Assembly (NCBI GenBank): GCA_004963905.1
Contig: SUGL01000002.1
Span: forward strand, 162,960 to 226,959
Length of the DNA stretch: 64,000 nucleotides
Direction: 5' to 3'
Source of the DNA: Mesorhizobium sp.
GTDB lineage: Bacteria; Pseudomonadota; Alphaproteobacteria; Rhizobiales; Rhizobiaceae
The notes under the pieces were generated by a model. The model worked only from the letters and a program-made list of their open reading frames with translations. It ran no database searches and was not told where the DNA came from. Below, piece after piece: positions 28,070-31,290 of the stretch. The translations under genes were made by a program, and so were the position numbers. The number at the start of each line of letters is the position of its first letter. Position 1 is the first letter of the stretch.

Positions 28070-29506
28070 ATGATGCCGCCTGAAAAAAAGGAAGTCCGTC
28101 CGTCGAGCCGGGGGGGACGCGCCCGCACGCCTGCCTTTCTGAAAAACGAACGCGGTGTGAAGAATTGGAAGGAAGCCAGCGCCTGGCTGGAATGGCGCGG
28201 CATAGAGGACATCGAATGCATCACGCCGGACCAGGCCGGCGTCGCCCGCGGCAAGATGATGCCGTCGAAGAAATTCACCTCCAACACTTCGCTGGCGCTG
28301 CCTTCGGCGGTGTTCATGACGACGATTTCCGGCGGCTACCCGGAAGACGGCAACGGCTTCCACTATCCGGAGGATGACGGCGACCTGAAGCTGCTTCCCG
28401 ATCTGTCGACGCTGACCGTGGTGCCTTGGGAAGAGGATCCGACCGCGGCCGTGATCTGCGACCTCGTCCACCAGGATGGCCGCTCCGTCGAGTTCACGCC
28501 GCGCAACGTGCTGAAGCGCGTGCTGGCCGCCTATGACGACCGTGGCCTGAGGCCGGTGGTGGCGCCCGAGATAGAGTTCTACCTGGTGCGCAAGAACCCC
28601 GACCCGGACTATCCGCTGACGCCGCCCGTCGGGCGCTCGGGGCGGCCGATCGGCGGCGGCGCCGGCTACTCGATCGCCGGCGTCAACGAGTTCGACGAGC
28701 TGATCGACGACATTTATCATTTCTCCGAGCGGCAGGGCCTGGAGATCGACACGCTGATTCACGAGGAAGGCGCCGGCCAGCTCGAGATCAACCTGCGCCA
28801 CGGCAACCCGATCGAGCTCGCCGACCAGGTCTTCATGTTCAAGCGCACCATCCGCGAGGCCGCGCTGAAGCACGAGATCTACGCCACCTTCATGGCCAAG
28901 CCGATCCAGGGGCAGCCGGGCTCGGCCATGCACATCCACCAGTCGGTCATCGACAAGAAGACCGGCAGGAACATCTTCTCGGCCGAGGACGGTTCCGAGA
29001 CAGACGCGTTCTTCCATTTCATCGGCGGCATGCAGAAGCATGTGCCGAACGCGCTGGTGATGTTCGCGCCTTACGTCAATTCCTACCGTCGCCTGACGCA
29101 GGCGGCCTCCGCGCCGGTCAACACCAAGTGGGGCTACGACAACCGCACGACGGCCTTCCGCGTGCCGCGATCCGACCCCGCGGCGCGGCGCGTCGAAAAC
29201 CGCATCCCGTCGTCCGACGCCAACCCCTATCTGGCGCTCGCCGCCTCACTCGCCTGCGGGCTGATCGGCATGACGCACAAGGAAAAGGCTTCGGCGCCGG
29301 TGCTCACCACCGCCAACGAGGACGAGATCGACCTGCCGCGCAACCTTCTCGAGGCCGTCGACCTGTTCGAAAGCGACAAGGAACTCGGCGCCATCCTCGG
29401 AAAATCCTTCGCCGCCACTTATGCAGCGATCAAGCGGGCGGAATTCGAGACCTTCATGGAAGTGATCAGCCCGTGGGAGCGGGAGTATCTTTTGCTGAAC
29501 GTTTAG
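28070..29506 (+). CDS. puuA: glutamine-synthetase family ligase, gamma-glutamylputrescine synthetase-like
   Basis: 478 aa. N-terminal beta-grasp region (about 35-130), then catalytic domain with PEIEFYLV, IHEEGAGQLEINL (metal-binding Glu pair), GSAMHIHQSV and NTKWGYDNRTTAFRVP. True glutamine synthetase I has an adenylylation-site Tyr segment that is not evident here, which favours the PuuA group: ATP-dependent gamma-glutamylation of putrescine or another amine. The PuuB-like oxidase after the inserted element and the potFGHI importer 7 kb away support polyamine use. Specificity remains inference. The first of two adjacent ATGs was taken. Confidence 0.78.
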   Translation: MMPPEKKEVRPSSRGGRARTPAFLKNERGVKNWKEASAWLEWRGIEDIECITPDQAGVARGKMMPSKKFTSNTSLALPSAVFMTTISGGYPEDGNGFHYPEDDGDLKLLPDLSTLTVVPWEEDPTAAVICDLVHQDGRSVEFTPRNVLKRVLAAYDDRGLRPVVAPEIEFYLVRKNPDPDYPLTPPVGRSGRPIGGGAGYSIAGVNEFDELIDDIYHFSERQGLEIDTLIHEEGAGQLEINLRHGNPIELADQVFMFKRTIREAALKHEIYATFMAKPIQGQPGSAMHIHQSVIDKKTGRNIFSAEDGSETDAFFHFIGGMQKHVPNALVMFAPYVNSYRRLTQAASAPVNTKWGYDNRTTAFRVPRSDPAARRVENRIPSSDANPYLALAASLACGLIGMTHKEKASAPVLTTANEDEIDLPRNLLEAVDLFESDKELGAILGKSFAATYAAIKRAEFETFMEVISPWEREYLLLNV

Positions 29507-30003
29507 GGGAGTAGGGGAATAAGGGGAGTAGGGGAATAAGGGAATAAGGGAGTAGGGGAGTAGGGGAGTAGGGAACGGCTCGGCGGGGGATAAATGGTCG
29601 AAAAAACGGGGTCATACAAAACAGGGTCATACAAGGACTTGGTAGTCTGGCAGCAAGCGATGGATCTTGCAGTGGCGGTTTATGGCGCCACGAAATCCTG
29701 GCCAAAGGAAGAGCTTTACGGGCTGACCAGCCAGATGCGTCGCGCCGCAAGCTCGGTGCCCTCAAACATTGCGGAAGGCTATGGCAGAGAGATCCGAGGC
29801 TCCTATCAGCAATTCCTCCGTATCGCTCAGGGATCACTGAAGGAGCTAGAAACTCAAATTCTCATTGCCGAGCGCACCGGTATCGCGCCGAAAGCGACGG
29901 CGGTTTCATTGTTGGAAGGAACCGAAAGCGTGGGAAAACTTCTTCGGCTTCTGATCCGCAAGCTCTCAACTGACTAACCCTACTCCCCTACTCGCCTACT
30001 CCC
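29507..30003. mobile_element. IVS-like element: four-helix-bundle gene between inverted repeats
   Basis: Directly after the PuuA-like stop comes a run of GGGGAGTA/GGGGAATAA units (29507-29573). Its last 26 bases (29548-29573, GGGAGTAGGG three times overlapping) are the inverse complement, with one mismatch, of 29978-30003, which lies directly after the four-helix-bundle gene and touches the start codon of the next gene. In RNA the two arms would pair into a 26-base-pair stem enclosing the ORF. This is the layout of intervening sequences in 23S rRNA genes, whose encoded proteins belong to the same family. Here it sits between two protein genes. No transposase is present. Confidence 0.65.
29594..29977 (+). 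CDS. four-helix-bundle protein (S23/IVS-encoded family)
   Basis: 127 aa, all-helical. Family core: YKDLVVWQQAMDLAVAVY, then SWPKEELYGLTSQMRRAASS, VPSNIAEGYGR and the closing helices LRIAQGSLKELETQILIA. Proteins of this family form pentamers, and relatives are encoded in 23S rRNA intervening sequences or serve as accessory proteins of diversity-generating retroelements; most have unknown roles. The N-terminus has a short duplication (KTGSY twice). The gene lies between the PuuA-like and PuuB-like genes, inside the inverted-repeat element, and looks like an insertion into their operon. Confidence 0.88.
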   Translation: MVEKTGSYKTGSYKDLVVWQQAMDLAVAVYGATKSWPKEELYGLTSQMRRAASSVPSNIAEGYGREIRGSYQQFLRIAQGSLKELETQILIAERTGIAPKATAVSLLEGTESVGKLLRLLIRKLSTD

Positions 30004-31290
30004 ATGGCCTACCAATCTCCCATTTCCCCCGGCCGTTCCTGGTATGAGGACACGGTCGGAACCCGCCCCGAATATCCGGCTCTGGACGGCGACCGGACTT
30101 GCGACGTCGTCATCGTCGGCGGCGGCTTCACCGGTCTTTCGGCGGCGGCACATCTGGCCAAGGCCGGCACGAATGTCGCGCTGATCGATGCGCACCGTTT
30201 CGGCGACGGCGCGTCGGGACGCAATGGCGGCCAGCTCGGCACCGGCCAGCGCGCCTGGGCGGAAGAACTTGAAGCCGAATACGGCCTCTCGCGCGCCAAG
30301 GCGCTGTTCGATCTCGCGGAAGAAGCCAAGGCGCATCTGCTGGATTTCGCGGCCGCCAACGAAATCGAGATCGACTACATGCCGGGCCAATTGTCGGTTG
30401 CGCACAAGCGGCGTTATGTCGACGACTACAAGCGCCATGCCGAGATCATGGCGAGCCGCTTCGGCTATCCGCACATCGCCTTCATGGACGCCGGCGAGAC
30501 GGCGGAACGGCTGGGCTCGACCCGCTATTTCGGCGGCACCCGCGACACCGGCACCGGGCATATCCACCCGCTCAAGCTGGTGATCGGCACGGCAAGGGTG
30601 GCCGCCGCGGCCGGCGCGCACCTGTTCGAGCGGACGCCCTCGACCGGCATCGCCTGCAGCGGCGGCAAGGTGAAGGTGACGACGCCGAAGGGCACGATAT
30701 CGGCCGAGAAATGCCTGATCGCGGTCAATGCCTATGGCGGCAATCTGGAGCCGGTGAGCGCGTCGCACATCATGCCGATCGGCTCCTTCATCGGCGCGAC
30801 CGTACCGCTCGGAACACAATCCAAGGTGCTGCCGGGCGGCGAGTCGGTGGACGACTCCCGCTTCGTCGTGCGCTACTTCCGCAAGTCGAGGGACGGGCGG
30901 CTTTTGTTCGGCGGCCGCGAGGTCTATGCCGTCAACGATCCAAAGGACATCCATATCCACATCCGCAGGCAGATCGCCGAGCTCTACCCAGCGCTGAAGG
31001 ACGTCGAGATCACGCATGGCTGGGGCGGCTATGTCGGCATCACCATGCCGAGGAAACCCTTCGTGCGCGAGGTGATGCCGAACGTGATCTCGATGGGCGG
31101 TTATTCCGGCCATGGCGTCATGCTGGCCAACTTCTTCGGCAAGCTCTATGCCGAGGCGGTCGCCGGCAATCGCGATCGGCTGAAGCTTATCGAGGATCTG
31201 AAGATTCCCGCCTTCCCGGGCGGTCGTCGTTTCCGCGCGCCGCTTCTGTTTCTGGCGCTCAACTGGTTCGCGCTGCGCGACAGGATCTGA
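30004..31290 (+). CDS. puuB: FAD-dependent oxidoreductase, PuuB/OrdL-like
   Basis: 428 aa DAO-type flavoprotein. N-terminal PGRSWYEDTVGT typical of gamma-glutamylputrescine oxidases, then the dinucleotide-binding motif DVVIVGGGFTGLSAAAHLAK (residues about 35-54), GASGRNGGQLGTGQRAW, the segment RLLFGGREVYAVND and C-terminal MPRKPFVREVMPNVISMGGY, SGHGVMLANFFGKLYAEA. It would oxidise gamma-glutamyl-amine made by the PuuA-like enzyme. The inverted-repeat arm CCCTACTCCC directly abuts the ATG, so no Shine-Dalgarno sequence is present. Translation probably depends on coupling to the preceding gene or is reduced. Confidence 0.82.
   Translation: MAYQSPISPGRSWYEDTVGTRPEYPALDGDRTCDVVIVGGGFTGLSAAAHLAKAGTNVALIDAHRFGDGASGRNGGQLGTGQRAWAEELEAEYGLSRAKALFDLAEEAKAHLLDFAAANEIEIDYMPGQLSVAHKRRYVDDYKRHAEIMASRFGYPHIAFMDAGETAERLGSTRYFGGTRDTGTGHIHPLKLVIGTARVAAAAGAHLFERTPSTGIACSGGKVKVTTPKGTISAEKCLIAVNAYGGNLEPVSASHIMPIGSFIGATVPLGTQSKVLPGGESVDDSRFVVRYFRKSRDGRLLFGGREVYAVNDPKDIHIHIRRQIAELYPALKDVEITHGWGGYVGITMPRKPFVREVMPNVISMGGYSGHGVMLANFFGKLYAEAVAGNRDRLKLIEDLKIPAFPGGRRFRAPLLFLALNWFALRDRI

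Follow-up and report, generated by a model that had tools for sequence, protein, structure and literature searches.

The Element at the PuuA-like/PuuB-like Junction

The window, i.e., the whole 64-kb stretch of Mesorhizobium DNA that was analysed, carries a gene of the PF05635 family that is enclosed by inverted arrays of short tandem repeats and has metabolic enzymes of the glutamine-synthetase and DAO families as its neighbours. The locus is made up as follows:

28070–29506, + strand: PuuA-like gene of the glutamine-synthetase family (PF00120, 1.8e-102), whose TAG stop codon at 29504–29506 abuts the repeats
29507–29573, + strand: left tandem array, the 5′ arm of the hairpin, with units GGGGAGTA / GGGGAATA(A)
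29548–29573, + strand: 26-nt inner left arm (96% complementarity with the right arm)
29594–29977, + strand: PF05635 / TIGR02436 four-helix-bundle gene of 127 aa (profile matches, AlphaFold pLDDT 90.5, fold of XCC0516)
29978–30003, + strand: right arm, with units TACTCCCC / TACTCGCC; the next gene's start codon follows immediately
30004–31290, + strand: PuuB-like FAD-dependent oxidoreductase (DAO family), with its ATG start at 30004

The original prediction had placed 26-base arms, inverse complements with a single mismatch, around a four-helix gene, and this was borne out: 25 of the 26 positions of the two arms (29548–29573 and 29978–30003), which are tandems of an 8-nt unit, are complementary at a spacing of 404 nt, and on the left further GGGGAGTA/GGGGAATAA units run outward to 29507, where they reach the PuuA-like stop codon. 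The left array amounts to eight register copies (29499–29579), and at the threshold used the arms were the only arrays of period 7 or 8 in the window. The element was also said to lie exactly between the PuuA-like stop and the PuuB-like start, and it does fill this interval completely, from the TAG to the ATG. The window copy is thus located between two protein genes, not in a 23S rRNA gene, and its ORF matches both PF05635 (23S_rRNA_IVP; 1.6e-36, 125.2 bits, curated cut-off 33.8) and TIGR02436 (3.8e-34, 117.2 bits, cut-off 24). No Rfam family matched positions 28900–30600, and a search for terminators or a promoter within the element returned nothing notable. The surrounding genes had been called a putrescine operon. 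The PuuA-like ORF scored 215 bits against the gamma-glutamylputrescine synthetase model, the cut-off of which is 650; the “Puu” names used here denote likeness only.

Matched Arms across Genomes and Phyla

The same build was found around all four PF05635 genes of the window's own genome, each of which lies between inverted tandem arrays with a different unit (GGCAGTA, GGGGAGTA, GCGAGTA/GCGAATA and GGAACTGA). Among 121 relatives the gene is present in 62 (59 of the 73 in the genus and 3 of the 48 elsewhere in the order), and all match rows from these 62 were merged into 111 loci. The arms were measured as the best inverted alignment of the flanks, with a threshold score of at least 28, which was reached by 106 of the 111 loci and by 0 of 555 positions drawn at random from these loci. 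A score of at least 36 was reached by 90 of the 111, versus 114 of 658 shuffled pairs, a control that is inflated because unrelated copies have a unit in common. Among 80 named loci, taken as the best from 546 relatives, 76 passed the threshold of 28, as did 6 of 400 random positions; these loci belong to Cyanobacteria, Acidobacteria, Chloroflexi, Planctomycetes, Bacteroidota, Spirochaetes, Fibrobacteres and others, about ten phyla in all, and 13 of them are Mesorhizobium loci partly identical with loci among the 111. Most other family members have arms as well. The original prediction's placing of the element in a putrescine operon describes that one junction, but the element is not restricted to it, with five sites in the genus and an occurrence in about ten phyla.

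When flanks from different organisms were mispaired, 54 of 374 pairs still reached 28 because the units resemble one another. In a comparison of 48 loci, with one locus taken for each name, a locus's own right arm ranked first or tied for first as partner in 23 cases and within the top three in 39. In a further set, 21 genomes of other phyla contributed 30 loci, of which 28 passed the threshold (several of these loci are genes among the 80) and 2 failed; of 41 Pseudomonadota loci, 26 passed and 15 failed (loci L289, L247 and L249 were left out of this count). The Pseudomonadota draw had the gene in 52 of 299 genomes, and some branches of this phylum are without arms or have decayed ones. Ten arm-less or weak loci were considered as rRNA inserts, and this was rejected as they had no Rfam match.

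The lag spectrum of the arms peaks at 7, 14 and 21 and, within the genus, also at 8 and 16. Among 86 period-7 arms there are 54 distinct units (up to rotation), which share a weak common form near T-[AG]-G-N-[GC]-A-[AG] (5.3 bits vs 3.9–4.0 for shuffled units), and the left and right units agree within an element although they vary widely between copies. One Acidobacteria genome (G417, L372–L384) holds 19 PF05635 matches; matched arms, with units different by eye, were present at 11 of its 13 further loci, and over all loci in the same comparison 17 of 20 passed, a few of them repeating earlier loci. The left arm is purine-rich (90/90 and 39/40), which was rejected as a gene-strand bias since the hairpin is symmetric, and means only that the arms run 5′-purine-rich on both strands. 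Two loci (L282 in G410 and L389 in G420) have perfect inverted arms of 40–41 nt around their PF05635 genes that are not plain heptamer tandems and are possibly another arm type. Draft contigs were seen to end at or near arrays (L033, L036, L048, L056, L081, L121, L122, L125 and L127), for which reason element counts in draft genomes are low estimates.

Copies in 23S rRNA and the Question of RNA Pairing

In one genome (G294), two identical PF05635 copies lie inside two 23S rRNA genes (RF02541, >2170 bits each) and have TCAGGAA-type heptamer arms of the same design as elsewhere; they were not counted as two insertion sites, as they reflect two rRNA genes. On the E. coli map the insert lies in what we take to be helix 45. 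An inserted hairpin is also present in the 23S rRNA of the window's own genome (L391), ~130–230 nt into the gene and presumably near helix 9; it contains no heptamers and was rejected as the same element. According to the accessible part of PMC4990558, the intervening sequence (IVS) of Coxiella sits in helix 45, has a 28-bp terminal stem with heptameric repeats before an S23p ORF, and is excised by RNase III; the origin of 23S rRNA IVSs is there called unclear, a mobile origin being one hypothesis among several. Because the G294 copies have the same arm design, rRNA IVSs with a PF05635-type ORF appear, from this one genome and one paper, to belong to one kind with the mRNA element and to differ from it in location. 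The 23S rRNA IVSs of Coxiella and Leptospira share with the window element the S23p/PF05635 kind of protein and inverted arms around the ORF, but the window element is situated in an mRNA junction and its kind occurs at several sites per genome, with satellites and with its own unit in each copy. The original view of an IVS-type four-helix-bundle element in mRNA, with no transposase in it, is thereby supported, the G294 copies providing the direct link.

The original prediction also had RNase III possibly splitting the transcript, should the stem form in the mRNA. In a fuller RNA-level explanation the arms would be maintained for their pairing in the transcript, and removal or splitting of the insert by RNase III would render it neutral in operons and in rRNA. 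The existence of family copies in rRNA (G294) and the published excision of the Coxiella IVS (accessible part of PMC4990558) speak for such a process, and so do the fold of the window transcript, which is better than that of shuffles (z −3.2), and the co-directional orientation of both neighbours at 78 of 132 loci, as judged by a rough criterion based on the longest ORF. The logic of a G-U test was that, by reasoning, both kinds of transition are equally expected under neutrality, and that RNA pairing would favour those differences between arms after which the sense RNA can still form a G-U pair. Such differences were not favoured (99 v 179, 68 v 69 and 42 v 65, in loci that are related and hence not independent), and the own genome's 23S rRNA insert without heptamers likewise counts against RNA-level removal. 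RNA pairing was accordingly rejected as the conserved principle. Cleavage of the RNA by RNase III gains no support from this test, which does not decide against it either, and on the sequences compared we regard an RNA-level explanation as unlikely.

Sites, Empty Junctions and Lineages

Comparison of the flanks placed the relatives' loci at five sites:

Site 1: the window's PuuA-like/PuuB-like junction (flank comparison)
Site 2: behind tolB (flank comparison, named by reading the sequence)
Site 3: the nuoC/nuoD junction (flank comparison, named by reading the sequence)
Site 4: acyl-CoA dehydrogenase/HIBADH (flank comparison, named by reading the sequence)
Site 5: an ATP-grasp/alpha-E pair (flank comparison, named by reading the sequence)

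By both flanks 103 loci were placed, and 7 contig-end loci by one flank; L111, from another family, was the sole locus without a place. At the window site 41 congeners are without the gene, and 30 of these loci were fetched, 26 of them readable. A bare spacer of 9–13 nt was present in 8 of the 26 and a gene-less insert of 107–210 nt in the other 18, with arms of at least 28 in 15 of the 18; the own arm pairs of these inserts scored 34 vs 22.5 for mispairs, the own pair being the best in only 5 of 18. Three of the four remaining loci were at a contig edge or without an upstream gene, and the fourth (L138) is a gene-less hairpin. The nuoC/nuoD junction could be matched in 51 of 54 gene-lacking congeners, and among 30 loci fetched, 29 of them readable, 27 had a spacer of 2–15 nt and 2 had other inserts. 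These two inserts, of 375 and 607 nt (L310 in G007 and L327 in G066), are of note in themselves, as the junction seems to tolerate foreign DNA.

Within the genus the nuoC/nuoD copies fall into three classes, GTGAGTA, GTGAATG and GCGAATA, and copies with further units are found at this junction in Bosea, Methylobacterium, Rhizobium, Rhodopseudomonas and others; two nuoC/nuoD loci are from other families (G082 and G088). By eye, most of 51 junctions have the beginning of the left array on the nuoC stop codon or a short distance after it, and the nuoD start was found on the right side of 35 of 151 loci. A protein tree was built from 112 columns and 192 rows, thinned from 224 once interrupted or short frames, duplicate rows and the majority of the named Mesorhizobium loci had been removed, and many of its forks stayed open. 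Site 2 (97, starred), site 4 (99, starred) and site 1 (84) each formed one group, and nuoC/nuoD needs nine changes, two of which are forced by starred branches. The Corticibacterium nuoC/nuoD copy (L204) groups among site-5 copies (98, starred), and the GCGAATA copies L065 and L106, which stood outside the tree and were compared separately, have median identities of 0.76 and 0.85 to site-5 proteins and of 0.62 and 0.71 to other site-3 proteins.

The site-1 group includes Brucella, Ochrobactrum and Paramesorhizobium, where both flanks encode the same two neighbours. The original prediction had proposed comparing loci with and without the element between puuA and puuB homologues; the junction is filled in these three genera and not in all relatives, i.e., the puuA/puuB lineage has persisted long without being universal. 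Of 32 loci at the window site 4 were unclassed, and in 26 of the 28 that had a class the right-arm unit matches the protein subtype, so that arm unit and protein subtype travel together. Taken with the tree and the junctions, this agreement points to arms and gene being inherited as one unit that has changed places, rarely within the genus. The claimed mobility therefore has support from empty junctions (8/26 at the window site and 27/29 at nuoC/nuoD), gene-less hairpins and several nuoC/nuoD lineages, three of them in the genus, and this support is indirect.

With one genome per species compared, no insertion event was seen, and no target-site duplication was recognised by eye in junctions compared between species. 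Concerted evolution of the arms per genome was weak within one site, the left and right arms of one locus agreeing hardly more than arms taken from different genomes, with site 3 as the exception. Palindromes in the host flanks, suggested by eye at two sites, were rejected as a target, own and mispaired flanks having medians of 12 vs 12 over 101 loci; 16 of the 101 own pairs lay above the 95th percentile, where ~5 were expected, an excess that could come from leftover arm sequence. An apparent recent transposition on two Calothrix plasmids was discarded as well, since the neighbours were duplicated too.

Gene-less Hairpins

Gene-less arrays of like build occur at about twelve other places in the window's own genome. 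Where fetched they are mostly visible hairpins, two places running off contig ends; one lies behind a gene end (C111:113852) and another between two genes (C395:20991), and they are more numerous than the four gene-bearing ones. A triplet pattern of GCGAATA/GTGAATG type gave 0–114 matches per genome of the genus, with none in 3 of 73, and was absent from 45 of the 48 genomes that represent the order's other families; the reversed pattern gave 7 matches in total. Outside the gene elements the median number of matches was 43 in genomes with the matching gene (n = 33), 21.5 in those with another gene (n = 26) and 5.5 in those with none (n = 14), with one-sided P values, in which kinship is ignored, of 0.0005 for matching v other, 2e-6 for matching v none and 0.003 for other v none. 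When the comparison was placed on a tree of 58 host genomes, the trend pointed the same way and was not significant, with too few independent pairs for the test: 6 were supported, of which on average 2.5 agreed and 0.2 disagreed. Three of the 14 gene-lacking genomes keep 16, 23 and 39 matches.

These hairpins could have a separate origin, arising at gene ends by slippage or template switching and serving as a landing pad, with the gene as a cassette swapped into them by homologous recombination. Such an order of events would fit the excess of gene-less over gene-bearing hairpins in the own genome, the gene-less inserts in 18 of 26 readable gene-lacking genomes at the window junction and the presence of repeats in genomes without the gene. 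It would not explain why arms match the protein subtype within one single site, why nuoC/nuoD is clean and without a hairpin in 27 of 29 gene-lacking genomes, or why the pattern is missing from 45 of 48 genomes belonging to the order's other families, and we consider it unlikely.

Fold and Selection of the Protein

The window protein is predicted by AlphaFold to be a four-helix bundle (pLDDT 90.5), and the best solved folds found with Foldseek were XCC0516 (2gsc, TM 0.82–0.87) and BT_0352 (2rld), followed by Avd, an oligomeric nucleic-acid binder of diversity-generating retroelements (DGRs). The match to Avd (4dwl and 8ub7/8ubb/8ube) has a TM of 0.70–0.75 at an E of 0.015 or worse, with 10–13% identity in the structural alignment; a likeness of PF05635 to Avd was already noted in the accessible part of PMC10053308.

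At five Mesorhizobium sites dN/dS was 0.06–0.13, with a median dS of 0.8–1.3 that is near saturation, as measured on intact genes of the same length only (21/26, 14/23, 13/19, 17/18 and 10/15). The PF05635 proteins are thus under purifying selection. The gene has a divergence of 0.16–0.32 vs 0.09–0.17 for the flanks and lies above both flanks in most pairs, which fits replacement, horizontal arrival or faster evolution; its divergence follows that of the flanks weakly, except at site 5 (rho 0.79–0.82).

Selection of this strength would also be expected of an ordinary conserved operon gene with a regulatory role, inherited by descent and often lost, the repeats being by-products, and the extension of the puuA/puuB lineage to Brucella and Paramesorhizobium would suit it. 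Such a gene would hardly be accompanied by arms that span about ten phyla (among the best 80 loci from 546 relatives), by three classes at one site within a genus, by copies in rRNA and by up to 19 matches per genome, all of which make this explanation very unlikely.

A Proposed Two-Tier Element and Its Relation to Known Systems

We consider it probable, with moderate confidence, that the window contains one copy of a widespread two-tier, REPIN-like element, in which an Avd-like protein takes the place of the Y1 transposase and acts on DNA. In the “master” form, inverted arms would enclose a PF05635 gene, each arm repeating a private unit of 7 or 8 nt in tandem; the “satellite” form would be a gene-less hairpin of the same kind scattered at other gene ends. 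At the DNA level, the protein may recognise those hairpin arms that belong to its own class, and with the help of host replication or repair enzymes it would let hairpin-ended units settle at tolerant transcribed boundaries, such as those behind stop codons and in rRNA hairpin loops. The arms would stay alike by re-copying of one from the other (template switching, slippage) and not by selection on an RNA stem. Recognition at the DNA level and host chemistry are proposed because protein, hairpin and host are the remaining constant parts; the mobilisation and the catalysis we infer. Against the two-tier element stand the mere five sites in the genus, with sites 1, 2 and 4 as single tree groups, as in a vertically kept gene, and the site-5 gene divergence that tracks the flanks (rho 0.79–0.82).

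The likeness to RAYT/REPIN systems, for which a long co-evolution was proposed (accessible part of PMC3116915), lies in a gene with its repeat beside it and in gene-less hairpin doublets dispersed in intergenic DNA. Unlike them, the window's own genome has no Y1 transposase, the window-type protein is a four-helix bundle, and the arms are tandem heptamers whose sequence varies from copy to copy. The DGR partner Avd resembles the window protein in fold (TM 0.70–0.75), but identity is 10–13% and the window copy lies between two metabolic genes; where a DGR would combine an Avd-like protein with a reverse transcriptase and a template repeat, the neighbours here are metabolic and the reverse transcriptase (PF00078) occurs in only 34 of 73 congeners.

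The hairpin form, like that of REPINs, and the fold near Avd (TM 0.70–0.75, Foldseek E 0.015 or worse) would suit an element that cannot move by itself and is mobilised in trans, either by a Y1 (REP) transposase or by a reverse transcriptase. Y1 (PF01797) had 0 matches in the own genome and was absent from 63 of 73 congeners (present in 10), PF00078 was not found in 39 of 73, and a genome with five PF05635 matches at four loci (G011) has neither enzyme. Y1 transposase and reverse transcriptase were therefore rejected as constant partners, and movement in trans by either is highly improbable.

The tandem heptanucleotides of Calothrix (STRRs) have a unit style like that of the PF05635 arms. In the accessible part of PMC4692102, heptameric SSRs (GGGAATC of Xanthomonas, GGGGA(C/T)T of Nostoc) are described near gene ends and often as inverted pairs, with 70 and 75 cases in two Xanthomonas genomes, and their role is given as unknown. 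Their units are of the style of the PF05635 arms, but that part of the paper draws no link to PF05635, and “four helix” and “intervening” are absent from its text. We tentatively extend the two-tier element to a transposase- and polymerase-free mobile DNA, in which an Avd-like protein would recognise hairpin arms made of a private heptamer, and hairpin-ended units would be copied into gene boundaries and rRNA loops via host replication and template switching; the same process might yield 23S rRNA IVSs, cyanobacterial STRRs and the excess of heptameric repeats seen in many genomes.

Singly, rRNA IVSs with an S23p ORF, intergenic heptameric repeats (PMC4692102) and REPIN-type two-tier systems (PMC3116915) are known, as far as the accessible parts of these sources go. 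Open-access titles and the starts of abstracts gave no link of PF05635 genes to matched heptamer arms outside rRNA. Nor did searches of the open-access literature bring up an element that combines all three, with a unit private to each copy and a place in operons across many phyla. If the mechanism is true, this would be a new class of mobile DNA. The element joins three things that the sources cited treat separately: S23p-type 23S rRNA IVSs, heptameric repeats to which no role is assigned there and the large “four helix bundle” gene family, to which no function is assigned. Since each gene copy is labelled by its own repeat, protein-DNA recognition and mobility are directly testable. In the accessible part of a CRISPR survey (PMC10910872), the 23S rRNA IVP is named in a figure legend on CRISPR-linked proteins; tandem arms of the kind described here could be mistaken for CRISPR arrays.
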